Source: Flavobacteriaceae bacterium (lineage in GTDB: Bacteria > Bacteroidota > Bacteroidia > Flavobacteriales > Flavobacteriaceae). From it: DNA of 50,146 bases. Location of the stretch: assembly GCA_022425945.1 (NCBI GenBank), contig JAKMEK010000008.1, positions 1 through 50,146 of the forward strand, given 5' to 3'. This document shows, in pieces, positions 27,466-38,743 of this stretch. The notes under the pieces are model-generated. The model worked only from the letters and a program-made list of their open reading frames with translations, had not been told where the DNA came from and searched no databases. Position 1 is the first letter of the stretch; each line of letters starts with the position of its first letter. The translations under genes were made by a program, and so were the position numbers.

Positions 27466-28988
27466 ATGCTTGTTCAACTCTTTGGCAGCGCTGTCTTTGG
27501 CGTAGATGCCCATTTGATTACCCTAGAAGTAAACATAGACAAAGGCATTGGCTATCATTTGGTGGGTTTGCCCGATAATGCCATTAAAGAAAGCAATTAC
27601 CGTATTGCTGCTGCATTGCAAAATATTGGGTACAAACTACCCGGGAAAAAGATCACCATCAACATGGCTCCTGCAGATATGCGTAAGGAAGGCTCTGCGT
27701 ATGATCTCCCCATTGCCTTAGGGATATTGACTGCATCCAAACAGATTCAGGCCACTGAAATTGGGGATTACATCATTATGGGGGAAATTGCCTTGGATGG
27801 CAGCTTACGTCCAATCAAGGGAGCCTTGCCCATTGCTATCCAAGCTTTGAAAGATGGCTTCAAGGGATTTATCCTTCCCAAGGAAAATGCAGAAGAAGCG
27901 TCCATAGTGAAAGGAATAGCCGTTTATGGTGTCAGTCATTTAACCGAAGTAATGCATTTTTTTGAAGGAAAAGAAGCATTGGTTCCCACTCAAATCGATG
28001 CCCGATCCTTGTTTAAAGAACAACAGCAAAATACTGCATTTGATTTCTCGGATGTAAAAGGGCAGGAGACCATTAAGCGTTGTATGGAAATTGCGGCTGC
28101 TGGTGGGCATAATGTGATATTAATTGGTCCCCGGGAGCTGGGAAGATCATGTTGGCCAAACGCTTACCTTCCATTTTGCCTCCCATGACGCTTGGAGAGG
28201 CCTTGGAAACGACCAAAATACATTCTGTCTTGGGGCGCGTAAAAGAGAAGGGTTTGGTGCATCAACGTCCGTTTCGCTCGCTCCATCATACTATCTCTGA
28301 TGTAGCTTTGGTGGGTGGGGGAACCTATCCGCAGCCGGGAGAAATTTCCTTGGCGCACAATGGGGTGTTGTTTTTGGATGAATTACCCGAGTTTAAACGT
28401 TCGGTGTTGGAAGTTATGCGGCAACCCCTAGAAGACCGAGAAGTGACTATCGCCCGTGCCAAGTTTACCGTTACCTATCCAAGTTCATTTATGTTGGTGG
28501 CCAGTATGAATCCCAGTCCTTCGGGCTATTTCCATTCAGGATCAAGTACACCCATAGAAACCCAGCGCTATTTGGCTAAAATATCCGGACCCTTGTTGGA
28601 TCGTATTGATTTGCATATCGAAGTGGAACCGGTTCCCTTTGAGGAACTGGCAAAGAAAGCATTGGGTGAAAACTCGGCCACAATTCGGAAACGGGTAACT
28701 GCAGCGCGTGCCATTCAGCAAAAGCGCTTTTTAGCCTTTACCAGCATTCATTACAATGCACAAATGAGCCCTAAGCAATTGCGGCAGTATTGTAAACTAG
28801 ATCCTTCAGCTCTTGACTTGCTAAAAACAGCTATGAAGAAATTGGGTCTTTCTGCCCGGGCCTATGACCGCATCTTAAAAGTAGCCAGAACCATTGCAGA
28901 CTTGGCTGCATCTGACAATATTCAATCTGCGCATATTGCTGAGGCTATTCAATACCGAAGCCTAGATCGAGAGGGTTGGATGGGTTGA
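27466..28988 (+). pseudogene. comM: ComM/YifB Mg-chelatase-like AAA+ ATPase, frameshifted
   Basis: Two overlapping frames (27466-28188 and 28149-28988) together encode one ComM protein. Restoring one base gives 507 residues, the normal family length. ComM is a hexameric helicase promoting branch migration during natural transformation. The N-terminal ChlI domain and most of the AAA+ and C-terminal domains are otherwise intact. The lesion is in the CCCC run at 28129-28132: adding a C restores GPPGAGK, the Walker A motif. The residue after that lysine would then be Ile, whereas the family has Thr (or Ser) to bind Mg2+. So two defects lie within about 20 bases of the ATP site. The frameshift alone could be a sequencing error; the second change argues for real loss. 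Confidence 0.88.
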
Positions 28989-29044
28989 TGAAAAGTTTTA
29001 AAAAAAAAAGAGGTACAAATGACAGTCTAATTAACGAAAGCAAT

Positions 29045-29052
29045 TATTTTTG
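29045..29052 (+). promoter_or_regulatory. -7 promoter element of fbp
   Basis: TATTTTTG is an exact TAnnTTTG match 26 bases before the fbp ATG, giving a leader of about 20 bases. No clear -33 element is visible. Confidence 0.5.
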
Positions 29053-29078
29053 TGCGGAAAATAAAGCAAGTGTAGAGC

Positions 29079-30065
29079 ATGAAAACATTAGGGGAATTTT
29101 TAATCGCAAATCAGCAAAAGGTCCAAGATTCCACAGGAGAGTTCAGCAAGGTCATTCATGCGCTTCGCCTAGCCTCTAAAGTGGTAAGTCATGAGGTCAA
29201 TAAGGCCGGTCTTGTAGATATTTTAGGAGAAGTTGGTACCACCAATATCCAAGGAGAATCGCAGCAAAAGTTGGATGTCTTTGCTCATGATCTCTTCATT
29301 AAAACACTAACCAATAGAAAAATTGTCTGTGGGATTGCCAGTGAGGAAGCCGATGATTACATACAAGTAAAACATCCAGATGCTGAAGAAGATAGCAAAT
29401 ACATTGTACTGATTGATCCTCTAGATGGATCATCCAATATTGATGTGAATGTTTCTTTAGGTACTATATTTTCCATTTACAAAAAGAAATCTGAGGGAGA
29501 CGAGGTGGTCTTGGATGACTTTTTACAGGCAGGAACAGAGCAAGTTGCTGCGGGTTATGTGCTCTATGGAACATCAACACTCTTTGTGTATACCACCGGT
29601 CAGGGGGTAAATGGTTTTACCTTGAATCCTGCCATTGGAACTTTTTATTTATCTCATCCCAATATAACCTTACCCAAAGAGGGGCATATTTATTCCATTA
29701 ACGAAGCTAATTATGCCAGTTTCCCTCAATCGGTCAAAAACTTTTTAAAGCAGCGCAAAGCGGAAGATTTAAATTACACCACCCGTTATATCGGCTCTAT
29801 GGTGTCTGATATACATCGCAATATGCTTAAAGGCGGACTCTTTTTGTATCCTCCCAATGCGAAATCACCGCAAGGAAAACTTCGTTTATTATACGAGTGC
29901 AACCCAATTGCCTTTATCGTAGAACAAGCCGGCGGAATGGCGGTGAGTATGGATAAGCGAATCATGGAAATACAACCCACGGAATTGCACCAACGCGAAC
30001 CCTTCTTTTGCGGAAATAGCGAGATGATCCAAGACCTTCAATATCATTTACAAAAGGGGGAGTGA
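29079..30065 (+). CDS. fbp: Fructose-1,6-bisphosphatase class I
   Basis: This 328-residue gluconeogenic enzyme removes the 1-phosphate of fructose 1,6-bisphosphate. The metal site DPLDGSSNIDVNVSLGTIFSIY and upstream ASEEAD carry the acidic Mg2+ ligands. The C-terminal NPIAFIVEQAGGMA and the RYIGSMVSDIHRNMLKGG segment are standard class I features. Start MKTLGEFL is supported by the -7 box 26 bases upstream; an upstream frame at 28976 is discarded. It stands alone after the broken comM, with its own promoter. Confidence 0.96.
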   Translation: MKTLGEFLIANQQKVQDSTGEFSKVIHALRLASKVVSHEVNKAGLVDILGEVGTTNIQGESQQKLDVFAHDLFIKTLTNRKIVCGIASEEADDYIQVKHPDAEEDSKYIVLIDPLDGSSNIDVNVSLGTIFSIYKKKSEGDEVVLDDFLQAGTEQVAAGYVLYGTSTLFVYTTGQGVNGFTLNPAIGTFYLSHPNITLPKEGHIYSINEANYASFPQSVKNFLKQRKAEDLNYTTRYIGSMVSDIHRNMLKGGLFLYPPNAKSPQGKLRLLYECNPIAFIVEQAGGMAVSMDKRIMEIQPTELHQREPFFCGNSEMIQDLQYHLQKGE

Positions 30066-30107
30066 AAAATAAATCCCCTGTAGTCTTTTCATAATTTGAT
30101 CCAAAAG

Positions 30108-30121
30108 TTAAGTAGCTGTTT
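30108..30121 (+). repeat. 14-bp motif upstream of the KAS III gene (copy 1)
   Basis: TTAAGTAGCTGTTT occurs here, 92 bases before the KAS III start, and again at 36951-36964, 119 bases before ilvD. Both copies are in AT-rich intergenic DNA in the same orientation relative to the gene. It may be a shared regulatory site or coincidence. Confidence 0.35.
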
Positions 30122-30199
30122 GATATAATTGTATTAACTTTAGATAACGTCTTGTCAAAGCATTTTCGCTAAGCTATAGGAGACGTTTAATACAACTAT

Positions 30200-31267
30200 A
30201 TGGGGAGTAAAATTACGGGTTCAGGGAGTGCAATGCCGAGTAGGATAATTACCAATGATTACTTTTTAAAGCACAACTTCTATACCAAAGAAGGCAAAAA
30301 AAATGAAAAGCCGACCGAAGCAGTTATCCAAAAACTAGAGGAAATTTCGGGTATAAAAGAACGTCGTTTTATTCCAGAAGAAGAGCCCTCTGTTGAAATT
30401 TTATTTGAAGCTTGTACGAATGCGATACAAGATGCAGGGGTCGATAAGAATGAAATCAGCGCCCTTATTGTGGCCCACAATGCAGGTAATATGCTTCCCA
30501 ACAAAGAAGGCGTATTTCATACAGTGCCTAATTTGGCTGCCGTGGTAAAGAATAAATTGGGGATCACCAATCATCAATGTCATGCCTATGATATTCTTTT
30601 TGGTTGCCCAGGATGGTTACAAGGGATCATTCAGGCCAATCGTTTAATTGAGTCGGGAGAAGCTACCCACGTACTTGTAGCTGGTTTAGAAATAGCTTCT
30701 CGTCTTTTGGATCCGCACGATGTGGATTCCTTGCTCATGGCCGATGGCTGCGGGGCTACCCTTGTTTCTAAGAATGATGCAAAAAATAGCGGCGTTATAT
30801 CGCATGCCATGTTCTCGCATACCGAAGAGGACCTAAATAATATTACTTTGGGAGATTCATTAAATAAGGAAGCCGCAGGACATTGCTTTTTTAAAATGAA
30901 TGGCCAAAGGGTTTATAAATACGCTACCACTTGGTTGCCTCAAGTAATTAAGCAGGCATTGGAAAAAGTAGACATTACTCCCGATGAGGTTGATTATTTT
31001 TTCTTTCATCAAGCCAATGCAAAAATGCTGCGTGTGATTGCGAGTAATTTAATGGGTTTATACGATCTTAAGGATGCGACTTATGCTCATAAAATCCCCT
31101 CTAGCATTAGTTTTTTAGGCAATACCTCTGTAGCAACCATCCCTACGCTTTTTGATTTGGTAGATAAAAACAAGATGGAAGGCTTTTCATTGAAAAAAGG
31201 ACAGACGTATGTCTTTGCATCAGTTGGTGCAGGGATGCATTGCAATGCTGTGGTATACAAGAGTTAG
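30200..31267 (+). CDS. 3-oxoacyl-ACP synthase III family protein (KAS III-like)
   Basis: This 355-residue thiolase-fold condensing enzyme has the KAS III catalytic triad: C136 in DILFGCPGW, H270 in FFHQANAKM and N308 in LGNTS. It ends with the family's FASVGAGMHCNAVVY glycine loop. It is longer than housekeeping FabH (about 317-335 residues), with a divergent N-terminus (MGSKITGSGSAMPSR), and it is not next to fatty acid synthesis genes. A role in a specialised or lipid-modifying condensation is as likely as primary FabH function. It precedes the Nramp-like transporter by 35 bases, so co-transcription is possible. Confidence 0.85.
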   Translation: MGSKITGSGSAMPSRIITNDYFLKHNFYTKEGKKNEKPTEAVIQKLEEISGIKERRFIPEEEPSVEILFEACTNAIQDAGVDKNEISALIVAHNAGNMLPNKEGVFHTVPNLAAVVKNKLGITNHQCHAYDILFGCPGWLQGIIQANRLIESGEATHVLVAGLEIASRLLDPHDVDSLLMADGCGATLVSKNDAKNSGVISHAMFSHTEEDLNNITLGDSLNKEAAGHCFFKMNGQRVYKYATTWLPQVIKQALEKVDITPDEVDYFFFHQANAKMLRVIASNLMGLYDLKDATYAHKIPSSISFLGNTSVATIPTLFDLVDKNKMEGFSLKKGQTYVFASVGAGMHCNAVVYKS

Positions 31268-31302
31268 AAATTTTAAAATGATTATATTACACTAAAATTC
31301 TA

Positions 31303-32496
31303 ATGTTTTCACGATTCAAGGGTGGTCCAGCTTTTATAATTACTGCAGCCTTTATTGGTCCAGGTACAATTACCTTGTGTGTTTTAGCCGGTGTTCAACA
31401 CGGTTTTTCCTTATTGTGGGCAATGCTGCTCTCCATTTTGATTACCATCATCATCCAAAACACCACTGCTAGAATAAGTTACACCACGCGTAAAGGTTTG
31501 GCAGAAAGTGTACTCTTGCAAGCCAAACACCCTTTGGTGAAATTCATTTTAGGACTGCTATTGATCAGCGCAGTTTTTATAGGAAATGCAGCTTATGAGG
31601 CCGGAAACATATCTGGTGCGCTCATAGGTTTTCAAACATTAATGCCTAGGATAGACTTTCATTTTGGGACAAAGCTTAATTTTTTACCATTGTTCGTGGG
31701 TAGCCTGGTGGGAGTTCTGCTTTTGGTGGGCTCTCCAAAAAGATTAAAGCATATTTTGATCGGAATTGTACTGCTGATGAGCACCTCTTTTTTGATTACG
31801 GCCATACTCACTCAACCCAATTTGGGTGAAATCTTTAGTGGCGTTTTTATTCCCTCGTTTAATGTAAATGATACCTTGATTATTGTTGGTTTATTGGGTA
31901 CAACCGTGGTACCATATAATTTATTCCTTCATGCTGCTTTGGTTAAAGAAACAAATCTATCCCTAGAGGCGCTTCGAGCAGACACTATTGTTGCGGTCGG
32001 TCTTGGTGGATTGATTTCTATCTCTATCATCATTTGTGCAGCTGCGCTTCAAGGACAATCCATCCAGTCTGCAGCAGATTTAGGTCAGTCGCTTGCACCC
32101 TTATACGGTCGCTTTGCGCCAGTACTGATGTCTATTGGATTGTTTGCTGCTGGAATTACTTCGGCACTCACTGCTCCCATGGCAGCAGCCTTTGTTGTTT
32201 GTGAATGTTTTGGCTGGCGGTCAAATGCTATGGCCTATAAAATTGTTGCTTTCTTGGTATTATTGGTCGGGGTTCTTTTTGCTTCTCTAGAAATTAAGCC
32301 CATAGAAATCATACGTTTTGCACAGATTACAAACGGAATTTTACTTCCTGTGGTCGGTTTTTTTATTTTGTTGTTGGTAAACAATGCCAAATTAATGCGG
32401 GGGAATACGGCTGGCACAGGAGTCAATCTTCTCCTTGTTTGCATTGAGGTCTTTTTTCTTTTCCTCGGCGTTAAAAGCCTTGGATTAATTTTTTAG
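31303..32496 (+). CDS. Nramp-like transporter of a 5-oxoprolinase operon
   Basis: This 397-residue protein has about 11 membrane segments and the Nramp/APC fold, recognisable in the TM6 region GLLGTTVVPYNLFLHAALV. The canonical metal ligands are missing. The TM1 DPGN motif is GPGT (19-22), so both the Asp and the Asn are lost, and TM6 MPH is VPY (203-205), so the soft metal-binding Met is lost. It is therefore unlikely to be a Mn2+/Fe2+ importer. pxpA starts 1 base after its stop, and B. subtilis has a comparable Nramp-family gene, ycsG, beside its pxp genes. Import of 5-oxoproline or a related compound is a reasonable inference. Confidence 0.85.
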   Translation: MFSRFKGGPAFIITAAFIGPGTITLCVLAGVQHGFSLLWAMLLSILITIIIQNTTARISYTTRKGLAESVLLQAKHPLVKFILGLLLISAVFIGNAAYEAGNISGALIGFQTLMPRIDFHFGTKLNFLPLFVGSLVGVLLLVGSPKRLKHILIGIVLLMSTSFLITAILTQPNLGEIFSGVFIPSFNVNDTLIIVGLLGTTVVPYNLFLHAALVKETNLSLEALRADTIVAVGLGGLISISIIICAAALQGQSIQSAADLGQSLAPLYGRFAPVLMSIGLFAAGITSALTAPMAAAFVVCECFGWRSNAMAYKIVAFLVLLVGVLFASLEIKPIEIIRFAQITNGILLPVVGFFILLLVNNAKLMRGNTAGTGVNLLLVCIEVFFLFLGVKSLGLIF

Positions 32497-32497
32497 T

Positions 32498-33226
32498 ATG
32501 TTTAGCATCGACTTGAATTGCGATGTAGGCGAGGGCACAGGTAATGATGCCAAACTAATGCCTTTTATTTCTTCTTGTTCCATTGCCTGCGGAGGACATT
32601 ATGGTTCTAAGCAGACCATTGAAGCAACTGCACAACTTGCCCAAGCGCATGGTGTACATATTGGCGCACACCCTTCTTATCCTGATAGCGAAAATTTTGG
32701 ACGTAAATCAATGAATCTGTCACTTGCAGACTTGCAAGATGCTTTGCGAAAACAACTGGATCTTTTTTTCTCTATTTGTACAAACGTAAGTCATATTAAA
32801 CCTCATGGAGCACTATACAATGACCTGTTCTTTGATTTGGAAAAGACTGAAGCTGTACTTGCTGTGTTTGCTGAGTATGCGCCGGGTATACGGGTGTATT
32901 GTTCAGCTGCCAGTCAATTGGCTAAAGTAGCAGCGCACAGTGGTTTTTCTGTTTGTATTGAGGCGTTTGCTGATCGCAGTTATGCAAAGAATGGATCCTT
33001 GCTGTCGCGTTCTGAAGATAATGCGGTACTTACGGACAAGCACAGTATTGCAAAGCAGGTTATTCAACTGGTGACCTCCAAGAGTGTTGAGTGTAATACT
33101 GGAGTGATTATCCCGGTTAAAGCACAAACCATATGCCTTCATGGTGATGGCTTACATGTGATTGAAAATGCTGCTTTTTTAGCAGAATCATTAATGCAAA
33201 ACAATATTCGTGTTCAAGGATTGTAG
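32498..33226 (+). CDS. pxpA: 5-oxoprolinase subunit A (LamB/YcsF family)
   Basis: This 242-residue subunit of the ATP-dependent prokaryotic 5-oxoprolinase opens pyroglutamate, a damage product of glutamine and glutamate, to glutamate. Family motifs are DLNCDVGEG at the N-terminus, HIGAHPSYPD, HIKPHGALYND and CLHGD near the C-terminus; their conserved His/Asp residues suggest the active site. It lies 1 base after the transporter and overlaps pxpB by 17 bases, consistent with a complex made from one transcript. Confidence 0.93.
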   Translation: MFSIDLNCDVGEGTGNDAKLMPFISSCSIACGGHYGSKQTIEATAQLAQAHGVHIGAHPSYPDSENFGRKSMNLSLADLQDALRKQLDLFFSICTNVSHIKPHGALYNDLFFDLEKTEAVLAVFAEYAPGIRVYCSAASQLAKVAAHSGFSVCIEAFADRSYAKNGSLLSRSEDNAVLTDKHSIAKQVIQLVTSKSVECNTGVIIPVKAQTICLHGDGLHVIENAAFLAESLMQNNIRVQGL

Positions 33227-33923
33227 GATTTTAAAAATAACTCCATCGATTTATTCGCTTCATTTTGAGAAGGGTTTTAATGGTGTCTTGACCTTGATCA
33301 AACAACGACTGAGCCAACTTTTCCCTGAATTGATTGAAATAACCAACAGCTTCAATCGCATAAATTTGATTTTTCCTAATGACCAACCGATCAAAGCGAT
33401 AAAATCAAAGCTTAGCTCCTTGGACCTTGAGAAACAATCGGTCAATTTTTCTGCGATACTTTGGGAGATTCCCATTTGTTTTGATCCCGTTTTTACGACT
33501 GACTTAGATACGCTTTTTGAAGATGACCTTGAAGCTGTTAGTCGCTATAGGCATGATTTTTTAGCAACGACTTTTACTCTTGAACTCTACGGCTTTCTGC
33601 CGGGATTTGGCTATCTGTCTGGTTTGCCAAAAGTATTGCAGCTCGACCGAAAGACCAATCCGAACGCCTTAACCCTAAAAGGTACTGTGGGTGTAGGGGG
33701 AGCCCAAGTTGGGGTATATCCACAAGATAGTCCCGGTGGATGGCAAAACATTGGCAATTGTCCATTGCCCTGGATAAATTTCACCAAAACTCCGTATACC
33801 TTTGTTGCTATTGGTGATAAAGTTTGCTTTTACGAAGTTGATTTGGCAGAACATAAAAGGATAGAGCATGAAGTTGCCATGGGGAGTTATCAACCTAAAT
33901 CAAGTAGCTATGATAAAAGTTGA
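33210..33923 (+). CDS. pxpB: 5-oxoprolinase subunit B (KipI family)
   Basis: This 237-residue protein matches the KipI/allophanate hydrolase subunit 1 domain, with YGFLPGFGYLSGLP, LKGTVGVGGAQVGVYPQDSP and GGWQNIGNCP blocks typical of PxpB. It works with PxpA and PxpC on 5-oxoproline. The start is GTG at 33210, the only in-frame start near the expected N-terminus, and it overlaps the pxpA 3' end by 17 bases. The name KipI comes from a sporulation kinase inhibitor in B. subtilis, a role not expected here. Confidence 0.9.
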   Translation: MFKDCRILKITPSIYSLHFEKGFNGVLTLIKQRLSQLFPELIEITNSFNRINLIFPNDQPIKAIKSKLSSLDLEKQSVNFSAILWEIPICFDPVFTTDLDTLFEDDLEAVSRYRHDFLATTFTLELYGFLPGFGYLSGLPKVLQLDRKTNPNALTLKGTVGVGGAQVGVYPQDSPGGWQNIGNCPLPWINFTKTPYTFVAIGDKVCFYEVDLAEHKRIEHEVAMGSYQPKSSSYDKS

Positions 33924-34758
33924 AGCTCCCGGTTTTTTCACCACTATTCAAGATAAAGGCCGGTTTGCATATCGGCATCTTGGCGTTCCTGTTGCCGGTC
34001 CAATGGACCAACATGGCTATGATTTGGCAATGGCTTTATTGCCCCATATACCCGATGGTTGCGTTTTTGAATGCACCTTGATTGGTCCGACCTTGCGACT
34101 GACAAAAGAAGTGCGATTTGTGGTTACCGGTGCACCCATTTCGATTAATCTTGATGGTGCACAATTGGCCATGAACAAAGTGCATCTTGCCCCAGTCAAC
34201 AGTTTATTGAAATTGGGTAAAGTGGAGAAGGGCATGCGTTCTTATTTGCGTTTTGGAGCGGATTTAGGAGTACCTACCATCCTTGACAGTAAATCGTTTT
34301 ATTCTCCACTAACTGCACACAAATCTTTGCAAAAGGGGGATGTTTTTTCGATTGAGAATACGCGATCCACAACTGTTATGAACCATGCATTGCTTCGCGT
34401 AAACGACGATTATATCACAGCGACCAATTTGGTCGTGTCTCACGGGCCAGACTGGGGGTTGCTTTCCACGGATCAACAATTGCAACTTCTCAATGAAACG
34501 CACAAGGTAGAAGCTCAAAACCGAATGGGGTATCGATTGAGCAGTACAATACGTGTTAATGCTCCTGCATTACTGAGTCAACTGGTCGTTCCCGGAATGG
34601 TACAACTTACTCCGGGTGGTAAACTATTGATTGCTACTGCTGACTGTCAGGTTACCGGTGGTTACCTCCAAGTCTTGCGATTACACAAGGAGTCGCTTGA
34701 TGTGCTCGTTCAAAAAAGAGAAGGGGAGATCCTTACTTTTCGAAATAAACTTCGTTGA
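33910..34758 (+). CDS. pxpC: 5-oxoprolinase subunit C (KipA family)
   Basis: This 282-residue protein belongs to the KipA/allophanate hydrolase subunit 2 family. It opens with the characteristic APGFFTTIQDKGRFAYRHLGVPVAGPMD and has SHGPDWGLL and the C-terminal GMVQLTPGGKLLIATADCQVTGGY block. I choose ATG 33910, which overlaps pxpB by 14 bases and places the family N-terminus at residue 1; a start at 33868 would add an unrelated 14 residues. Its last 26 bases overlap the convergent nitroreductase gene. Confidence 0.9.
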   Translation: MIKVEAPGFFTTIQDKGRFAYRHLGVPVAGPMDQHGYDLAMALLPHIPDGCVFECTLIGPTLRLTKEVRFVVTGAPISINLDGAQLAMNKVHLAPVNSLLKLGKVEKGMRSYLRFGADLGVPTILDSKSFYSPLTAHKSLQKGDVFSIENTRSTTVMNHALLRVNDDYITATNLVVSHGPDWGLLSTDQQLQLLNETHKVEAQNRMGYRLSSTIRVNAPALLSQLVVPGMVQLTPGGKLLIATADCQVTGGYLQVLRLHKESLDVLVQKREGEILTFRNKLR

Positions 34759-35461
34759 ATGGAACCCGAAATTGGGGCCCATAGACACCGCCTTTGCCTC
34801 GAATTCCACAGCTAATAATCATATTGATCATTGCTGCTTTTGGGAGTCCTAAAATGTCTTTTACACGTTTGGAGTCAAAGCCCTCCATGGGGCAAGTATC
34901 ATAGCCATGTGACGCCATGCTAATCATGAAGTTTTGTGCTGCTAAGGCAGTGCTCTTGTGTGCAACCACTTTAAGGTCACTAGCAGATACTTGTCGATAC
35001 ATTGGTTTTGAAAGCCCACTGATAAAGGCAAATATGCCTTTGAAAAAGCCGAGTATGCCGAAGTAATCTGTGTAGAGCGTAGGGATGATTTTTGTGTAGT
35101 AATTGGTCGCTATTTTCTCGCGTTTGTGGTCGCGTTTTTCTTGTGCTTCGAATTGAGCCTTCAAAAAAGCGAGGTTTGCTTGAACGCGTGATTTCCACAA
35201 ATCTTTCCGCACCACTGGAATGACAAACTGAAGCGCCGTTTTTGCAGCTGCTTGTCCAAAACATGCTTCAGCAATTTTTGCTTTCACAGTAGGGTCGGTG
35301 ATGTGATAAAACTCCCAGAGTTGAAGATTACTGCTCGTTGGAGCAATTGCGGCTTGTTTTACGCATTTTTTTACGATTGCCGTATCGATTGCTTTTGATG
35401 GATCATAGATGCGCACTGATCGGCGATAACTGATCGCTTCACTTACCGTTTTCTCGGTCAT
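34733..35461 (-). CDS. Nitroreductase family flavoprotein
   Basis: This 242-residue protein has the N-terminal FMN-binding signature SYRRSVRIYD and APTSSNLQLWEF, and the C-terminal CPMEGFDSKRVKDILGLP of NfsB-like enzymes. It would use NAD(P)H and FMN to reduce nitro compounds, quinones or other electrophiles. The middle (about 90-150) is longer and more basic than in typical 200-residue members. It follows an aldehyde dehydrogenase gene by 1 base, so the two form an operon, perhaps for handling reactive carbonyl or electrophile stress. The physiological substrate is unknown. Confidence 0.88.
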   Translation of the reverse strand: MTEKTVSEAISYRRSVRIYDPSKAIDTAIVKKCVKQAAIAPTSSNLQLWEFYHITDPTVKAKIAEACFGQAAAKTALQFVIPVVRKDLWKSRVQANLAFLKAQFEAQEKRDHKREKIATNYYTKIIPTLYTDYFGILGFFKGIFAFISGLSKPMYRQVSASDLKVVAHKSTALAAQNFMISMASHGYDTCPMEGFDSKRVKDILGLPKAAMINMIISCGIRGKGGVYGPQFRVPFNEVYFEK

Positions 35462-35462
35462 A

Positions 35463-36836
35463 TTATATGTTTTTTAAAAGTTTTTTCAGCCAATTAAAGG
35501 AAGTTGGGTAAGGGGCATAACGTATGGATGGGTCAATCCAAGTTCCACGTTTTACGAAAGGTTTGTAATGCGTAAAAGCATCAAATGAATGTTTCCCATG
35601 GTAGGCCCCCATGCCACTGTGTCCAACTCCACCAAAGGGCAGGTTGTCATTGGCAAATTGGATTAGGCTATCGTTGGCCACTCCACCTCCATAGGAGTGT
35701 TGAGCAAAGATGCGCTTGATGAATTTTTTTCGTTTGGAAAAGACATAAAAACCTAGCGGGCGTTCGTATTGTTCTATGATGTGATCAATTTCATTTTCGT
35801 TCTGATAGGATAAAACAGGTAGGATTGGACCAAAAATTTCTTCTTCCATGGTGGGATGCGAACTGTTGTTAACCTCGAGAACAGTGGGGCCAAAATAGTT
35901 GGTTTTGGCATCGTGATCTCCACCGTGAATTAGATCAGTGTCTTTGACAAGGTGCACCATGCGATCAAAGTGTTTGGCATGGGCAATGCGTCCATAACTT
36001 TTGGAGCTAGAAGGATCCTCGCCAAAGGCATGTTTTATTTCGGCGACAATGGCTTCTATCAGCTGATCTTTTATGCTGGCTTCTGCCAAAATGTAATCAG
36101 GTGCAATACAGGTTTGACCGCAATTCACATATTTCCCCCATACAATGCGTTTGGCGCTTAATTGAATAGAAGCTGAAGCATCAACAATACAAGGGTTTTT
36201 TCCTCCCAGTTCCAATACAGTTGGGGTTAAATGAACTGCAGCAGCTTTGGCAATGATCTTTGCGATATGTGTACTACCCGTAAAAAAGATATGATCCCAA
36301 CGTAGGTTTAGTAATTCATTGGCAGCTGAGGCATCTCCATTGACGACCGTGACATGTTGAGGGTCGAAAGATTTTGCGATTATTTTTGCAACAATCTCTG
36401 CCGTTTTGGGTGCGTGTTCTGAGGGTTTTAAAACAACCGTATTTCCTGCGGCAACTGCACCAATCACCGTGGCTAAAGAAAGTTGGAAAGGATAATTCCA
36501 TGGACTTATTTGTAAACAACAGCCAAAAGGCTCAGGTAGCAAATAGTCCTTGGAAGGGAAATTTAGCATTGAGGACTTAACCCTTTTGGGCATCGACCAG
36601 CGTTCCATATTTTTGATCATGGTTTTCAATTCCGACATTACCACAAAATACTCTGTCAAATAGGCTTCAAAGTCTGGTTTTCCTAGGTCGGAAAATAGTG
36701 CGTGATGGATTGCATTTTCTTCTTCTATCAGCACAGCTTGAAACCGAATAAGACTATCTTTGCGGAATTGAATGTTTTTGGTTTGATGTGCGTTGAAAAA
36801 AGCACGTTGTTTTTGATGAATGTCAGAAATTGGCAT
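35463..36836 (-). CDS. Aldehyde dehydrogenase, class 3-like
   Basis: This 457-residue NAD(P)+ enzyme oxidises aldehydes to acids. Catalytic residues are visible: N114 in ISPWNYPF, E209 in TVLELGGKNP and C243 in VNCGQTCIAPDY. The short length without a long N-terminal extension and the PFGCCLQISPWNYP segment place it near class 3/fatty aldehyde dehydrogenases; relatives in bacteria include coniferyl aldehyde dehydrogenases. It is transcribed ahead of the nitroreductase. Upstream, 233 bases separate it from the divergent ilvD and contain no gene. Confidence 0.92.
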   Translation of the reverse strand: MPISDIHQKQRAFFNAHQTKNIQFRKDSLIRFQAVLIEEENAIHHALFSDLGKPDFEAYLTEYFVVMSELKTMIKNMERWSMPKRVKSSMLNFPSKDYLLPEPFGCCLQISPWNYPFQLSLATVIGAVAAGNTVVLKPSEHAPKTAEIVAKIIAKSFDPQHVTVVNGDASAANELLNLRWDHIFFTGSTHIAKIIAKAAAVHLTPTVLELGGKNPCIVDASASIQLSAKRIVWGKYVNCGQTCIAPDYILAEASIKDQLIEAIVAEIKHAFGEDPSSSKSYGRIAHAKHFDRMVHLVKDTDLIHGGDHDAKTNYFGPTVLEVNNSSHPTMEEEIFGPILPVLSYQNENEIDHIIEQYERPLGFYVFSKRKKFIKRIFAQHSYGGGVANDSLIQFANDNLPFGGVGHSGMGAYHGKHSFDAFTHYKPFVKRGTWIDPSIRYAPYPTSFNWLKKLLKNI

Positions 36837-36950
36837 AGTAATGTTTTAAAGTAGTAAAGTAGTTAACTTTTTTGAATGGGGGAGAGGAATCACTTTTATT
36901 AATTGAATGTGGGCTTCGTTTATTACTTAGGAATAACTATTTCAAACGAT

Positions 36951-36964
36951 TTAAGTAGCTGTTT
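36951..36964 (+). repeat. 14-bp motif upstream of ilvD (copy 2)
   Basis: This is the same TTAAGTAGCTGTTT as at 30108-30121, here 119 bases before the ilvD start, in AT-rich DNA between the divergent aldehyde dehydrogenase and ilvD genes. Confidence 0.35.
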
Positions 36965-37069
36965 ATTAGATTTTTAATTATATTAATGTGTCTTTGGGCA
37001 TAATAGGAATAAATCTTTTTTGGCTGTGGTGCTTTTTTTGCATTTTAAATTCGTTACATAATAAATTAG

Positions 37070-38743
37070 ATGGAGCTCAATAAATACAGTAAAGCGGTCA
37101 CCCAAGACCCAACACAACCTGCAGCGCAGGCAATGTTACACGCTATTGGTTTAACCGATGAAGACTTTAAAAAACCATTAATAGGTATCGCAAGTACGGG
37201 TTACGAAGGTAACCCATGTAATATGCACTTGAATGCCCTTTCAGTTGATATCAAGAATGGAGTTCAAAGCGCCGATTTGGTTGGTTTGATTTTTAATACG
37301 ATTGGTGTTAGTGATGGAATTTCTATGGGAACACCCGGAATGCGCTTTTCCTTACCTTCTCGAGATGTAATTGCCGATTCGGTAGAAACAGTAGTACAAG
37401 CAATGTCCTATGATGGTGTAGTTACCGTAGTAGGCTGTGATAAAAATATGCCTGGTGCCCTTATGGCCATGTTGCGTTTAAACAGACCGAGTATTTTGGT
37501 CTATGGTGGAACCATTGCCGCTGGTTGTCACAAGGACAAGAAACTAGATGTTGTCTCTGCCTTTGAAGCTTGGGGCGAAAAAGTAGCGGGAACCATCGAT
37601 GAAAAAGAATACAAAGAAGTGGTGCGTAATGCCTGTCCAGGCGCCGGTGCTTGTGGCGGAATGTACACAGCCAATACTATGGCATCTGCTATAGAGGCTT
37701 TGGGAATGGCATTGCCTTATAATTCATCCAATCCTGCTGTTAGTCCAGACAAAAAAGAAGAATGTGAGCGTGTTGGAAATGCACTAAAACATTTGATAGA
37801 AAATGACATTAAACCCAAAGATATTGTAACCGCTAAGGCCTTAGAAAACGCCATCCGATTGATTGCTGTTTTGGGAGGATCTACGAATGCAGTGTTGCAT
37901 TTCTTGGCGATTGCTAAAGCGGCAAAGCTTGACTTTACCATCGATGATTTTCAAAAAATCATGGACAAAACACCTTTCCTTGCTGACTTGAAACCAAGTG
38001 GTAAATACCTCATGGAAGATTTGCACAATATTGGAGGTGTACCTGCAGTACTAAAATTTATGCTTGAAGAAGGTTTGTTACATGGAGACTGTTTAACCGT
38101 TACTGGAAAAACCTTGGCTGAAAATTTAGCGAATGTTCCCTCGCTCAAGGAAGGACAGCAAATCATCAAGCCCATGGATAATCCTATTAAAGCTACAGGT
38201 CACATCCGTATCCTGAAAGGAAACTTAGCTGCAGGTGGGTCAGTTGCAAAAATTACTGGAAAAGAAGGCCTCGTTTTTAAAGGCCCGGCTCGTGTGTTCA
38301 ATGGCGAATATGCAGCCAATGACGGAATCCGTGAGGGCTTGGTCCAAAAAGGAGAAGTTGTTGTCATTCGATACGAGGGTCCTAAGGGTGGTCCGGGAAT
38401 GCCAGAAATGCTAAAACCAACTGCTGCCATTATGGGTGTGGGATTAGGAAAAGATGTAGCGCTGATTACTGACGGACGATTTTCTGGTGGAACCCACGGT
38501 TTTGTGGTAGGTCACATTGTACCTGAAGCGCAAGAGGGTGGAGTAATTGGATTGCTCGAAGATGGAGATATCATCGAGATCAATGCAGAGAAGAACACCT
38601 TAGAGGTGCATTTATCGGATGCAGAACTAAGCGAACGTAAAGCAAATTGGACAGCACCCGAGCTAAAGTTCTCGAGTGGTGTACTTTATAAATACATTAA
38701 AAACGTGTCAACAGCCTCTGAGGGATGTGTGACCGACGAATAA
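37070..38743 (+). CDS. ilvD: Dihydroxy-acid dehydratase
   Basis: This 557-residue iron-sulfur enzyme dehydrates dihydroxyacids to the 2-oxoacid precursors of valine and isoleucine. Cluster cysteines are in [12 protein letters not shown] and [20 protein letters not shown], and the C-terminal [21 protein letters not shown] signature is intact. It is the first gene of the ilvDBNCA operon, 6 bases before ilvB. The 233-base upstream region shows no exact TAnnTTTG box near the start, so its promoter is unresolved. Confidence 0.97.

Follow-up and report, generated by a model that had tools for sequence, protein, structure and literature searches.

Cleavage of 5-oxoproline (pyroglutamate) is the known reaction of the 5-oxoprolinase PxpABC (PMC13274462; papers are cited by PMC number, each from part of its text). 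Here we analyze a carrier gene of the Nramp family (PF01566) that precedes a pxpABC operon in a stretch of 50,146 nucleotides from a Flavobacteriaceae bacterium (assembly GCA_022425945.1, contig JAKMEK010000008.1; the whole stretch is called the window). The closest described carriers are those of the YcsG type, comprising PxpT of Corynebacterium glutamicum, YcsG (MntG) of Bacillus subtilis and MumT of Acinetobacter baumannii, which share with the window carrier the family PF01566, a place next to pxpA, and, in the YcsG-type rows aligned here, a signature of GPG in transmembrane helix 1 (TM1), Asn in TM3 and Tyr in TM6. PxpT and YcsG stand outside our alignments and are assigned to this type by the papers; for MumT the assignment comes from its operon (L137). 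In C. glutamicum, a pxpT deletion mutant does not grow on 5-oxoproline and pxpT alone rescues growth; PxpT is 50% identical to YcsG, and its authors leave metal transport possible (PMC13274462). For the YcsG type, import of 5-oxoproline by an Nramp-family protein encoded beside pxp genes has already been proposed in print. YcsG has also been called a Mn2+ importer, its overexpression raising cellular Mn and MntR binding the promoter of the ycsG operon, and the earlier 5-oxoproline phenotype might be polar (PMC10448178). A mumT mutant of A. baumannii has lower cellular Mn (PMC5050338).

In Campylobacter jejuni, import of 5-oxoproline has been proposed for a DUF969/DUF979 candidate carrier, and a mutant in cj0552-4 (DUF969, DUF979 and DUF2891, in one operon) fails, in preliminary results, to use 5-oxoproline (PMC12795558); the link to DUF2891 is shared with the carriers described here, while the protein families differ. 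In the rooted tree of a preprint (PMC12873925), the canonical metal Nramps lie inside paraphyletic Nramp-related proteins, with MntG in 'G-motif 3' and, in the part of the text available, the remaining groups except NRMT-like given as uncharacterised. The SLC11 orphan outgroup (Cellier, PMC10606218, PMC9606685) is described as a PF01566 group next to Slc11 whose helix 6 has V-Y and whose helix 3 has Y-N, as found here; residues V203/Y205 and Y98/N102 of the window carrier fit this spacing, the comparison being with the papers' description and not with their sequences.

The window carrier is probably a LeuT-fold secondary transporter of an Nramp-related, non-metal branch (the GPGT branch) that imports 5-oxoproline, and our best reading of the cargo is 5-oxoproline or a close cyclic amide. 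We computed a predicted fold, a pocket without the metal ligands, a conserved operon, an exchange of partner enzymes and an exchange of carriers, and from these we infer the substrate, import and not export, and the pocket chemistry. The carrier would import 5-oxoproline, and PxpABC, encoded directly behind it, would open the ring with ATP to give glutamate. The GPG of the broken TM1, Asn102 in TM3 and Tyr205 in TM6 may together bind a small carboxylate or a cyclic amide in place of a metal. As far as the open-licence literature searched goes, new findings are the second branch, its pairing both with PxpABC and with HyuA/HyuB (fused or split), the exchange of carriers and the signature of GPG, Asn and Tyr; a link between Nramps and hydantoinases was not found in those papers.

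The carrier gene and the pxp operon

The carrier and the operon have the following features (numbering of canonical residues as in DraNramp).

31303..32496, + strand: Nramp-family (PF01566) carrier of the GPGT branch, 397 amino acids (aa) (Pfam, alignment, predicted LeuT fold)
31357..31368, + strand: TM1 break G19-P20-G21-T22, canonical D56-P57-G58-N59 (alignment)
31597..31608, + strand: TM3 residues E99-A-G-N102, canonical D131 and E134 (alignment)
31900..31920, + strand: TM6 break T200-T-V-V-P-Y-N206, canonical A227...M230-P231-H232 (alignment)
32497..32497, no strand: lone base separating the stop of the carrier gene from the start of pxpA (sequence)
32498..33226, + strand: pxpA, 5-oxoprolinase subunit A (LamB/YcsF; PF03746 247.6 bits; NF003814 227.8 bits, cut-off 226)
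33210..33923, + strand: pxpB-like carboxyltransferase subunit (PF02682, CT_C_D, 121.7 bits; TIGR00370 91.1 bits, below its cut-off of 145.55)
33868..34758, + strand: pxpC-like carboxyltransferase subunit (PF02626, CT_A_B, 171.4 bits; NF045499 116.4 bits, below its cut-off of 500)

The carrier ends with a TAG stop at 32494-32496 and pxpA starts with an ATG at 32498, in agreement with the original prediction, which had placed the stop one base before pxpA. In the window, the pxpA/pxpB and pxpB/pxpC frames overlap, and the Pfam families of subunits A, B and C in one operon assign the enzyme to PxpABC. The carrier belongs to PF01566 (234 bits over residues 27-367, cut-off 29.8) and also passes the NCBIfam model NF037982, 'Nramp family divalent metal transporter' (69.7 bits, cut-off 50), which is a name and not a tested function; it fails the NCBIfam MntH model NF001923 (119 bits, cut-off 430).

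A match to the carrier was found in 17 of the 18 congeners searched, and the carrier-pxp order is kept in all 13 loci of the same genus or family that were retrieved with longer flanking sequence, 12 of which have an open carrier frame. In the remaining one (congener G013, L098), carrier, pxpA and pxpB are frame-broken, by decay or sequence errors. Chance linkage is rejected, because the order is kept in these 13 relatives and carrier and pxpA co-occur over 296 genomes (see below). Export of a product, or the absence of any transport role in the pathway (a chance operon partner or a relic), is very improbable: sequence does not tell direction and one congener has the frame-broken copy, but the gene order is conserved over phyla, the carrier is re-paired with other enzymes, and its frame is open in the other relatives with wider flanks.

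Fold and metal-ligand positions

The AlphaFold2 model of the carrier (50 alignment rows; predicted local distance difference test score 86.5, predicted template-modelling score 0.87) has helices broken at residues 18-19 and 202-203, i.e. at GPGT and VVPY. Its best fold match is DraNramp (6d91; Z 48.1, root-mean-square deviation 2.3, 379 residues aligned); EleNRMT matches with Z 44.6, and the next matches are APC-fold carriers of amino acids, K+, choline and others (Z about 28-32). For a predicted model, fold likeness to Nramps says nothing of function. In APC amino-acid carriers, the substrate carboxylate is bound by the Gly-rich TM1 break. B. subtilis YcsG gave no match by sequence among solved structures, and the YcsG-FabL model 9a52 turns up in fold searches alone, at 18 and 20% identity.

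In the alignment with DraNramp, TM1 reads AAFIGPGTITL in the window carrier and IAYMDPGNFAT in DraNramp, and TM6 reads LGTTVVPYNLFLHA and IGATVMPHVIYLHS, respectively, which confirms the predicted changes of DPGN to GPGT and of MPH to VPY. The window carrier shares with canonical SLC11/Nramp proteins (DraNramp, MntH) the fold and the TM1 and TM6 helix breaks, and retains P57, G58, P231 and Q378 of DraNramp. It differs from them in having G19 for D56, T22 for N59, T200 for A227, V203 for M230 and Y205 for H232, while Glu and Asn replace D131 and E134; the canonical SLC11/MntH motifs DPGN and MPH are thus absent, with GPGT and VPY in their place.

The residue alignment comprised 131 branch rows, 21 canonical, 9 NRMT-like, 6 YcsG-type and 13 other rows (rows below 360 aa were dropped; at least one genome is present twice, as L101 and L200, and further repeats between the named and the unnamed sets are possible). 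In the branch, D56 is replaced by Gly and N59 by Thr or Ser in 130 of 131 rows (one gap each), and A227, M230 and H232 by Thr, Val and Tyr in all 131; the five residues D, N, A, M and H are present in 21/21 canonical rows. A ligand loss in one gene is rejected, since the state is branch-wide, and the 'removing' of metal ligands that had been claimed is not borne out. At E134 the branch has Asn in 127/131 rows and Asp in four that are linked to an arginase-family gene. The signature of TM1 GPG, TM3 Asn134 and TM6 Tyr232 is present in 126/131 branch and 6/6 YcsG-type rows and in 0/43 of the others; seven further YcsG-type rows fit it by eye.

The parallel drawn by the original prediction with B. 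subtilis ycsG holds in that the YcsG type also adjoins pxpA, but the two are no close relatives. The YcsG-type rows are 20-22% identical to the window carrier and have GPGF and GGTVGGY, where the window carrier has GPGT and GTTVVPY; they form a separate clade (100/100), outside of which the window carrier falls. A single family with YcsG is rejected on account of the separate clade. The YcsG-type operons L137, L138, L141 and L143 also encode a YcsI-like putative hydro-lyase and a biotin carboxylase, both absent from the window operon.

Among solved structures, the window carrier is most similar in sequence to the Mg2+ carrier EleNRMT (109.6 bits), with which it has Thr at 227 in common. In the nine NRMT-like rows D56 is retained and M230 is replaced by Ala, Ser or Thr; the window carrier has G19 and is not assigned to NRMT. 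The EleNRMT match would suit an importer of Mn2+ or Mg2+ with a metal site altered as in NRMT, whose divalent metal would serve the neighbour enzymes as cofactor. The arginase family is Mn-dependent, and exactly the four arginase-linked members have Asp at E134. The reported Mn phenotypes of YcsG (with MntR at its operon promoter) and of the mumT mutant point the same way, and missing ligands alone would leave room for Mn2+, since MumT (L137) also lacks them and yet its mutant is low in Mn (PMC5050338). Set against a metal importer are the non-canonical residues at D56, N59, A227, M230 and H232 in 130 or 131 of 131 rows, the separation of the branch from the NRMT clade (98/96) and, as described below, the absence of comparable neighbours from 38 other Nramp loci and the ring-opening chemistry common to partner enzymes of different families. 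A metal importer therefore appears unlikely, and is retained because Mn2+ import has been claimed for the other GPG branch and because of the arginase-linked rows.

The window genome is a draft (1.83 Mb, 98 contigs, 86% complete). Four further PF01566 matches in it (L085-L088) have GTGS or GVSH in TM1, one of them being open over 303 aa only, and none of its PF01566 matches, at this completeness, is a canonical DPGN/MPH Nramp.

Partner enzymes and exchanged carriers

Sample one was obtained by a search with the window protein of 296 genomes of the phylum of the window, which at E <= 1e-40 gave 62 branch genomes. The sample is taken to be Bacteroidota from one locus of the window's own family (G022, L101), apparently the same contig as the Flavobacteriaceae locus L200. 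Adjacency means <=300 bp on the same strand, and neighbours were counted from 40 bits in phmmer upwards, a threshold at which remote enzymes may go unnoticed; flanks were about 1.4 kb only in 29 of the 62 loci, and about 5 kb per side in most controls, less in a few. The carrier is adjacent to pxpA, pxpB or pxpC in 30 of the 62, to split HyuA and HyuB in 6 and to a fused HyuA-HyuB in 3 (measured in L076 and L078, at 1,265 and 1,279 aa). A Hyu-type gene lies farther away or on the opposite strand in 4, and DUF2891 lies within 300 bp without an adjacent pxp gene in 2, one of which (G145) has pxpABC 1.2 kb downstream. Control loci of canonical (0/20), NRMT-like (0/8) and other Nramp-related carriers (0/10) have no such enzymes (0/38 together), and YcsG-type controls have pxp genes in 2/2.

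Over the 296 genomes, carrier and pxpA (PF03746) occur together in 40, the carrier alone in 22 and pxpA alone in 17 (Fisher p 1.9e-20, uncorrected for kinship); 57 genomes pass the PF03746 cut-off, and the sub-threshold G144 was dropped. In 31 of the 40 genomes with both, pxpA lies <=1.5 kb downstream of the carrier on the same strand. Inspection covered pxpA loci other than those of G149, G231, G220, G102 and G223.

Sample two came from a contig search with a 12-row alignment and a haloarchaeal query, and consists of the best 80 of 587 named hits, which are not a random set. Among these 80, pxp genes are adjacent in 52 and farther away in 4, and the partner is HyuAB in 8, fused HyuA-HyuB in 2 (1,252 aa each), an arginase-family protein in 4 and DUF2891 in 1. 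The rows with pxp genes adjacent or near include Bacteroidota, Bacillota (Natroniella, Alkalihalobacillus), Actinomycetota (Streptomyces) and Pseudomonadota (Kangiellaceae). Among these rows HyuAB is confined to the 8 haloarchaea and present in all of them, HyuA lying immediately behind the carrier; HyuAB likewise follows in a Haladaptatus plasmid locus (L105), with zero bases between the annotated genes, which makes 9/9 haloarchaeal loci examined (eight haloarchaeal plasmid hits top another listing, of which L105 alone was inspected). Accordingly, the claim that an Nramp without metal ligands is locked to pxp genes stands in both parts, and the linkage extends further, to HyuA/HyuB.

PxpABC and HyuA/HyuB belong to different Pfam families. 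The closest solved chains to the HyuA/HyuB-type enzymes are 7hk5 (N-methylhydantoinase) and 6yra (deposited as 5-oxoprolinase and hydantoinase), and their NCBIfam matches are caprolactamase and acetophenone carboxylase models, all below cut-offs. As far as is known for these families, PxpABC and fused and split HyuA/HyuB have the opening of cyclic amides in common.

Our trees are unrooted, and their rows (90, 44 and 46) were picked after the contexts were known. The GPGT branch is one side of a supported split (98/96; 96 in a larger quick tree). The 44-row tree contains 27 rows linked to pxp genes, including four non-adjacent ones (L153, L165, L185, L221), and 14 linked to Hyu-type genes, including L084 (2.9 kb off). 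Partner type changes three times on this tree, as forced by the starred branches, and three is also the 5-95% bootstrap range; a single clade of Hyu-linked rows is rejected (approximately unbiased (AU) test, p 0.005). The haloarchaeal Hyu-linked rows neighbour the pxp-linked rows of Natroniella and Alkalihalobacillus (99/98), and two Bacteroidota rows with fused enzymes nest within a pxp clade (97/95). PxpABC and Hyu-type partners have thus been swapped at least three times while the key pocket positions stayed constant: positions 56, 58, 134, 227, 230 and 232 are identical in rows linked to either, and position 231 is Pro in both but Gly in nine haloarchaeal rows.

The pocket varies together with the neighbourhood in two groups, each mostly one clade and hence representing few independent events. 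Asp at E134 combined with Ile or Met at D131 occurs, among the 131 rows, exclusively in the Bacillota members L186, L187, L203 and L210, all of them arginase-linked, where either a guanidino group or a metal could be bound by the Asp. Ten rows have P231 replaced by Thr or Ala, and in none of them does the stretch searched contain a lactam enzyme as neighbour. L203 and, by eye, L210 additionally encode a regulator with a YheO-like PAS domain. A subgroup with VTYN or VAYN in TM6 (L075, L077, L079, L082, L083, L102, L266-L268) has no lactam enzyme nearby; L077 adjoins a thiamine-pyrophosphate-domain protein and L102, by eye, a similar one.

These members bear on whether the carrier serves another small solute of the same pathways, with 5-oxoproline as a side substrate. 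Such a solute could be a hydantoin or another lactam where the partner is Hyu-type, a guanidino compound where it is of the arginase family, or else glutamate or bicarbonate. The breadth of the HyuA/HyuB family, the arginase-family neighbours with their altered TM3 pair (Ile/Met 131, Asp 134), and the single members that adjoin a CN-hydrolase (L154) or a carbonic-anhydrase-like protein (L195) suggest as much. The window clade, however, is tied to pxpABC, known to cleave 5-oxoproline (PMC13274462), and the key pocket positions are identical across both partner types, making another main solute rather unlikely for the window carrier.

The exchange also runs in the other direction. In 8 of the 17 genomes with pxpA and no carrier of this branch, a YcsG-type protein is encoded directly at pxpA (L228, L229, L280, L281, L282, L285, L286, L288), and in one more it lies 2.4 kb away (L293). 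In two others (L287, L291), a Pfam-confirmed carrier of the major facilitator superfamily, a further candidate 5-oxoproline carrier, lies between pxpC and pxpA. The remaining six have neither carrier type within the fetched stretch, with L289 ending at a contig edge. Different carriers can thus occupy the slot beside pxpA, which is what uptake of the substrate would lead one to expect. In L279 (G019), which lacks the carrier, pxpABC lies between ComM-like and ilvD-like genes (by eye), as it does in the window (27466-38743), so that the two genomes offer a single chromosomal site at which to study how the carrier was lost or gained. The ComM/YifB-like gene of the window (27466-28988, named by eye) is in two overlapping frames near the nucleotide-binding loop, reflecting a frameshift or an assembly error.

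Cargo, origin and naming

Import of 5-oxoproline by the window carrier is suggested by the enzyme of its clade, PxpABC, which makes 5-oxoproline the likely cargo, and the growth requirement for pxpT (PMC13274462) supports it by analogy, although PxpT is of the YcsG type. A metabolite such as 5-oxoproline as cargo, as put forward in the original prediction, accordingly appears likely from gene linkage and exchange.

Several results weigh against this assignment. In the window, PxpA alone scores above its NCBIfam cut-off, PxpB and PxpC falling below theirs, and Peptidase_C15 has no match in the 86% complete genome. No neighbour of the kinds described was found in 17 of the 62 loci of sample one (six in f51, five in f22, two in f19 and one each in f53, f39, f43 and f37) and in 9 of the best 80 hits of sample two, and pxpA lies elsewhere in 9 of the 40 genomes with both genes. 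Four Bacillota members are near an arginase-family gene instead (Pfam-tested in L203), and Hyu-linked members may carry other rings, their enzyme family acting on other substrates too. The Mn2+ results for YcsG (PMC10448178) and MumT (PMC5050338) count on the same side.

The switch from metals to a metabolite, also part of the original prediction, is doubtful: the rooted tree of the preprint (PMC12873925) makes the metal site look gained, our own trees being unrooted. A joint clade of the GPGT branch and the YcsG type is compatible with our data (AU p 0.228, with long branches), and an independent origin of the two pxp-linked branches was dropped as a claim. The chances are about even that both groups, with GPG in TM1, Asn in TM3 and Tyr in TM6 as their mark, transport cyclic amino-acid derivatives, that Nramp metal transport arose inside such organic-solute carriers, and that the pocket can be re-tuned, as with the arginase partner (Asn to Asp, and a nearby Glu/Gln to Ile/Met).

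Annotation rules name such proteins divalent metal transporters, as shown by the NF037982 match of the window carrier and by the eight top haloarchaeal plasmid hits, which are so named. If 5-oxoproline import is correct, part of PF01566 is misnamed, and a second branch, paired with several enzyme types, provides an independent test of whether YcsG carries Mn2+ or 5-oxoproline, which is in dispute. The origin of Nramp metal transport would be recast as a passage from organic solutes to metals. A possible source of the substrate in Bacteroidota is the N-terminal pyroglutamate that most signal-peptidase-I substrates would carry by the Q-rule, followed by about 71% of these substrates across Bacteroidetes (PMC10653852); this pyroglutamate would gain a candidate way back into metabolism.

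DUF2891 (PF11199) has no match in the window genome. In 34 loci (36 rows minus two repeats, further repeats being possible) it is encoded on the strand of the carrier at a distance of <=300 bp, often with a lipoprotein-like N-terminus. In the seven loci inspected, it is directly upstream of the carrier; examples among the 34 are L299, L301-L303, L305 and L312 (= L037, L041, L038, L040, L039, L058) and L214. Solved structures of DUF2891 are 8ieu/8iev. DUF2891 is thus tied to two unlike candidate 5-oxoproline carriers, DUF969/979 (via PMC12795558) and the branch described here.

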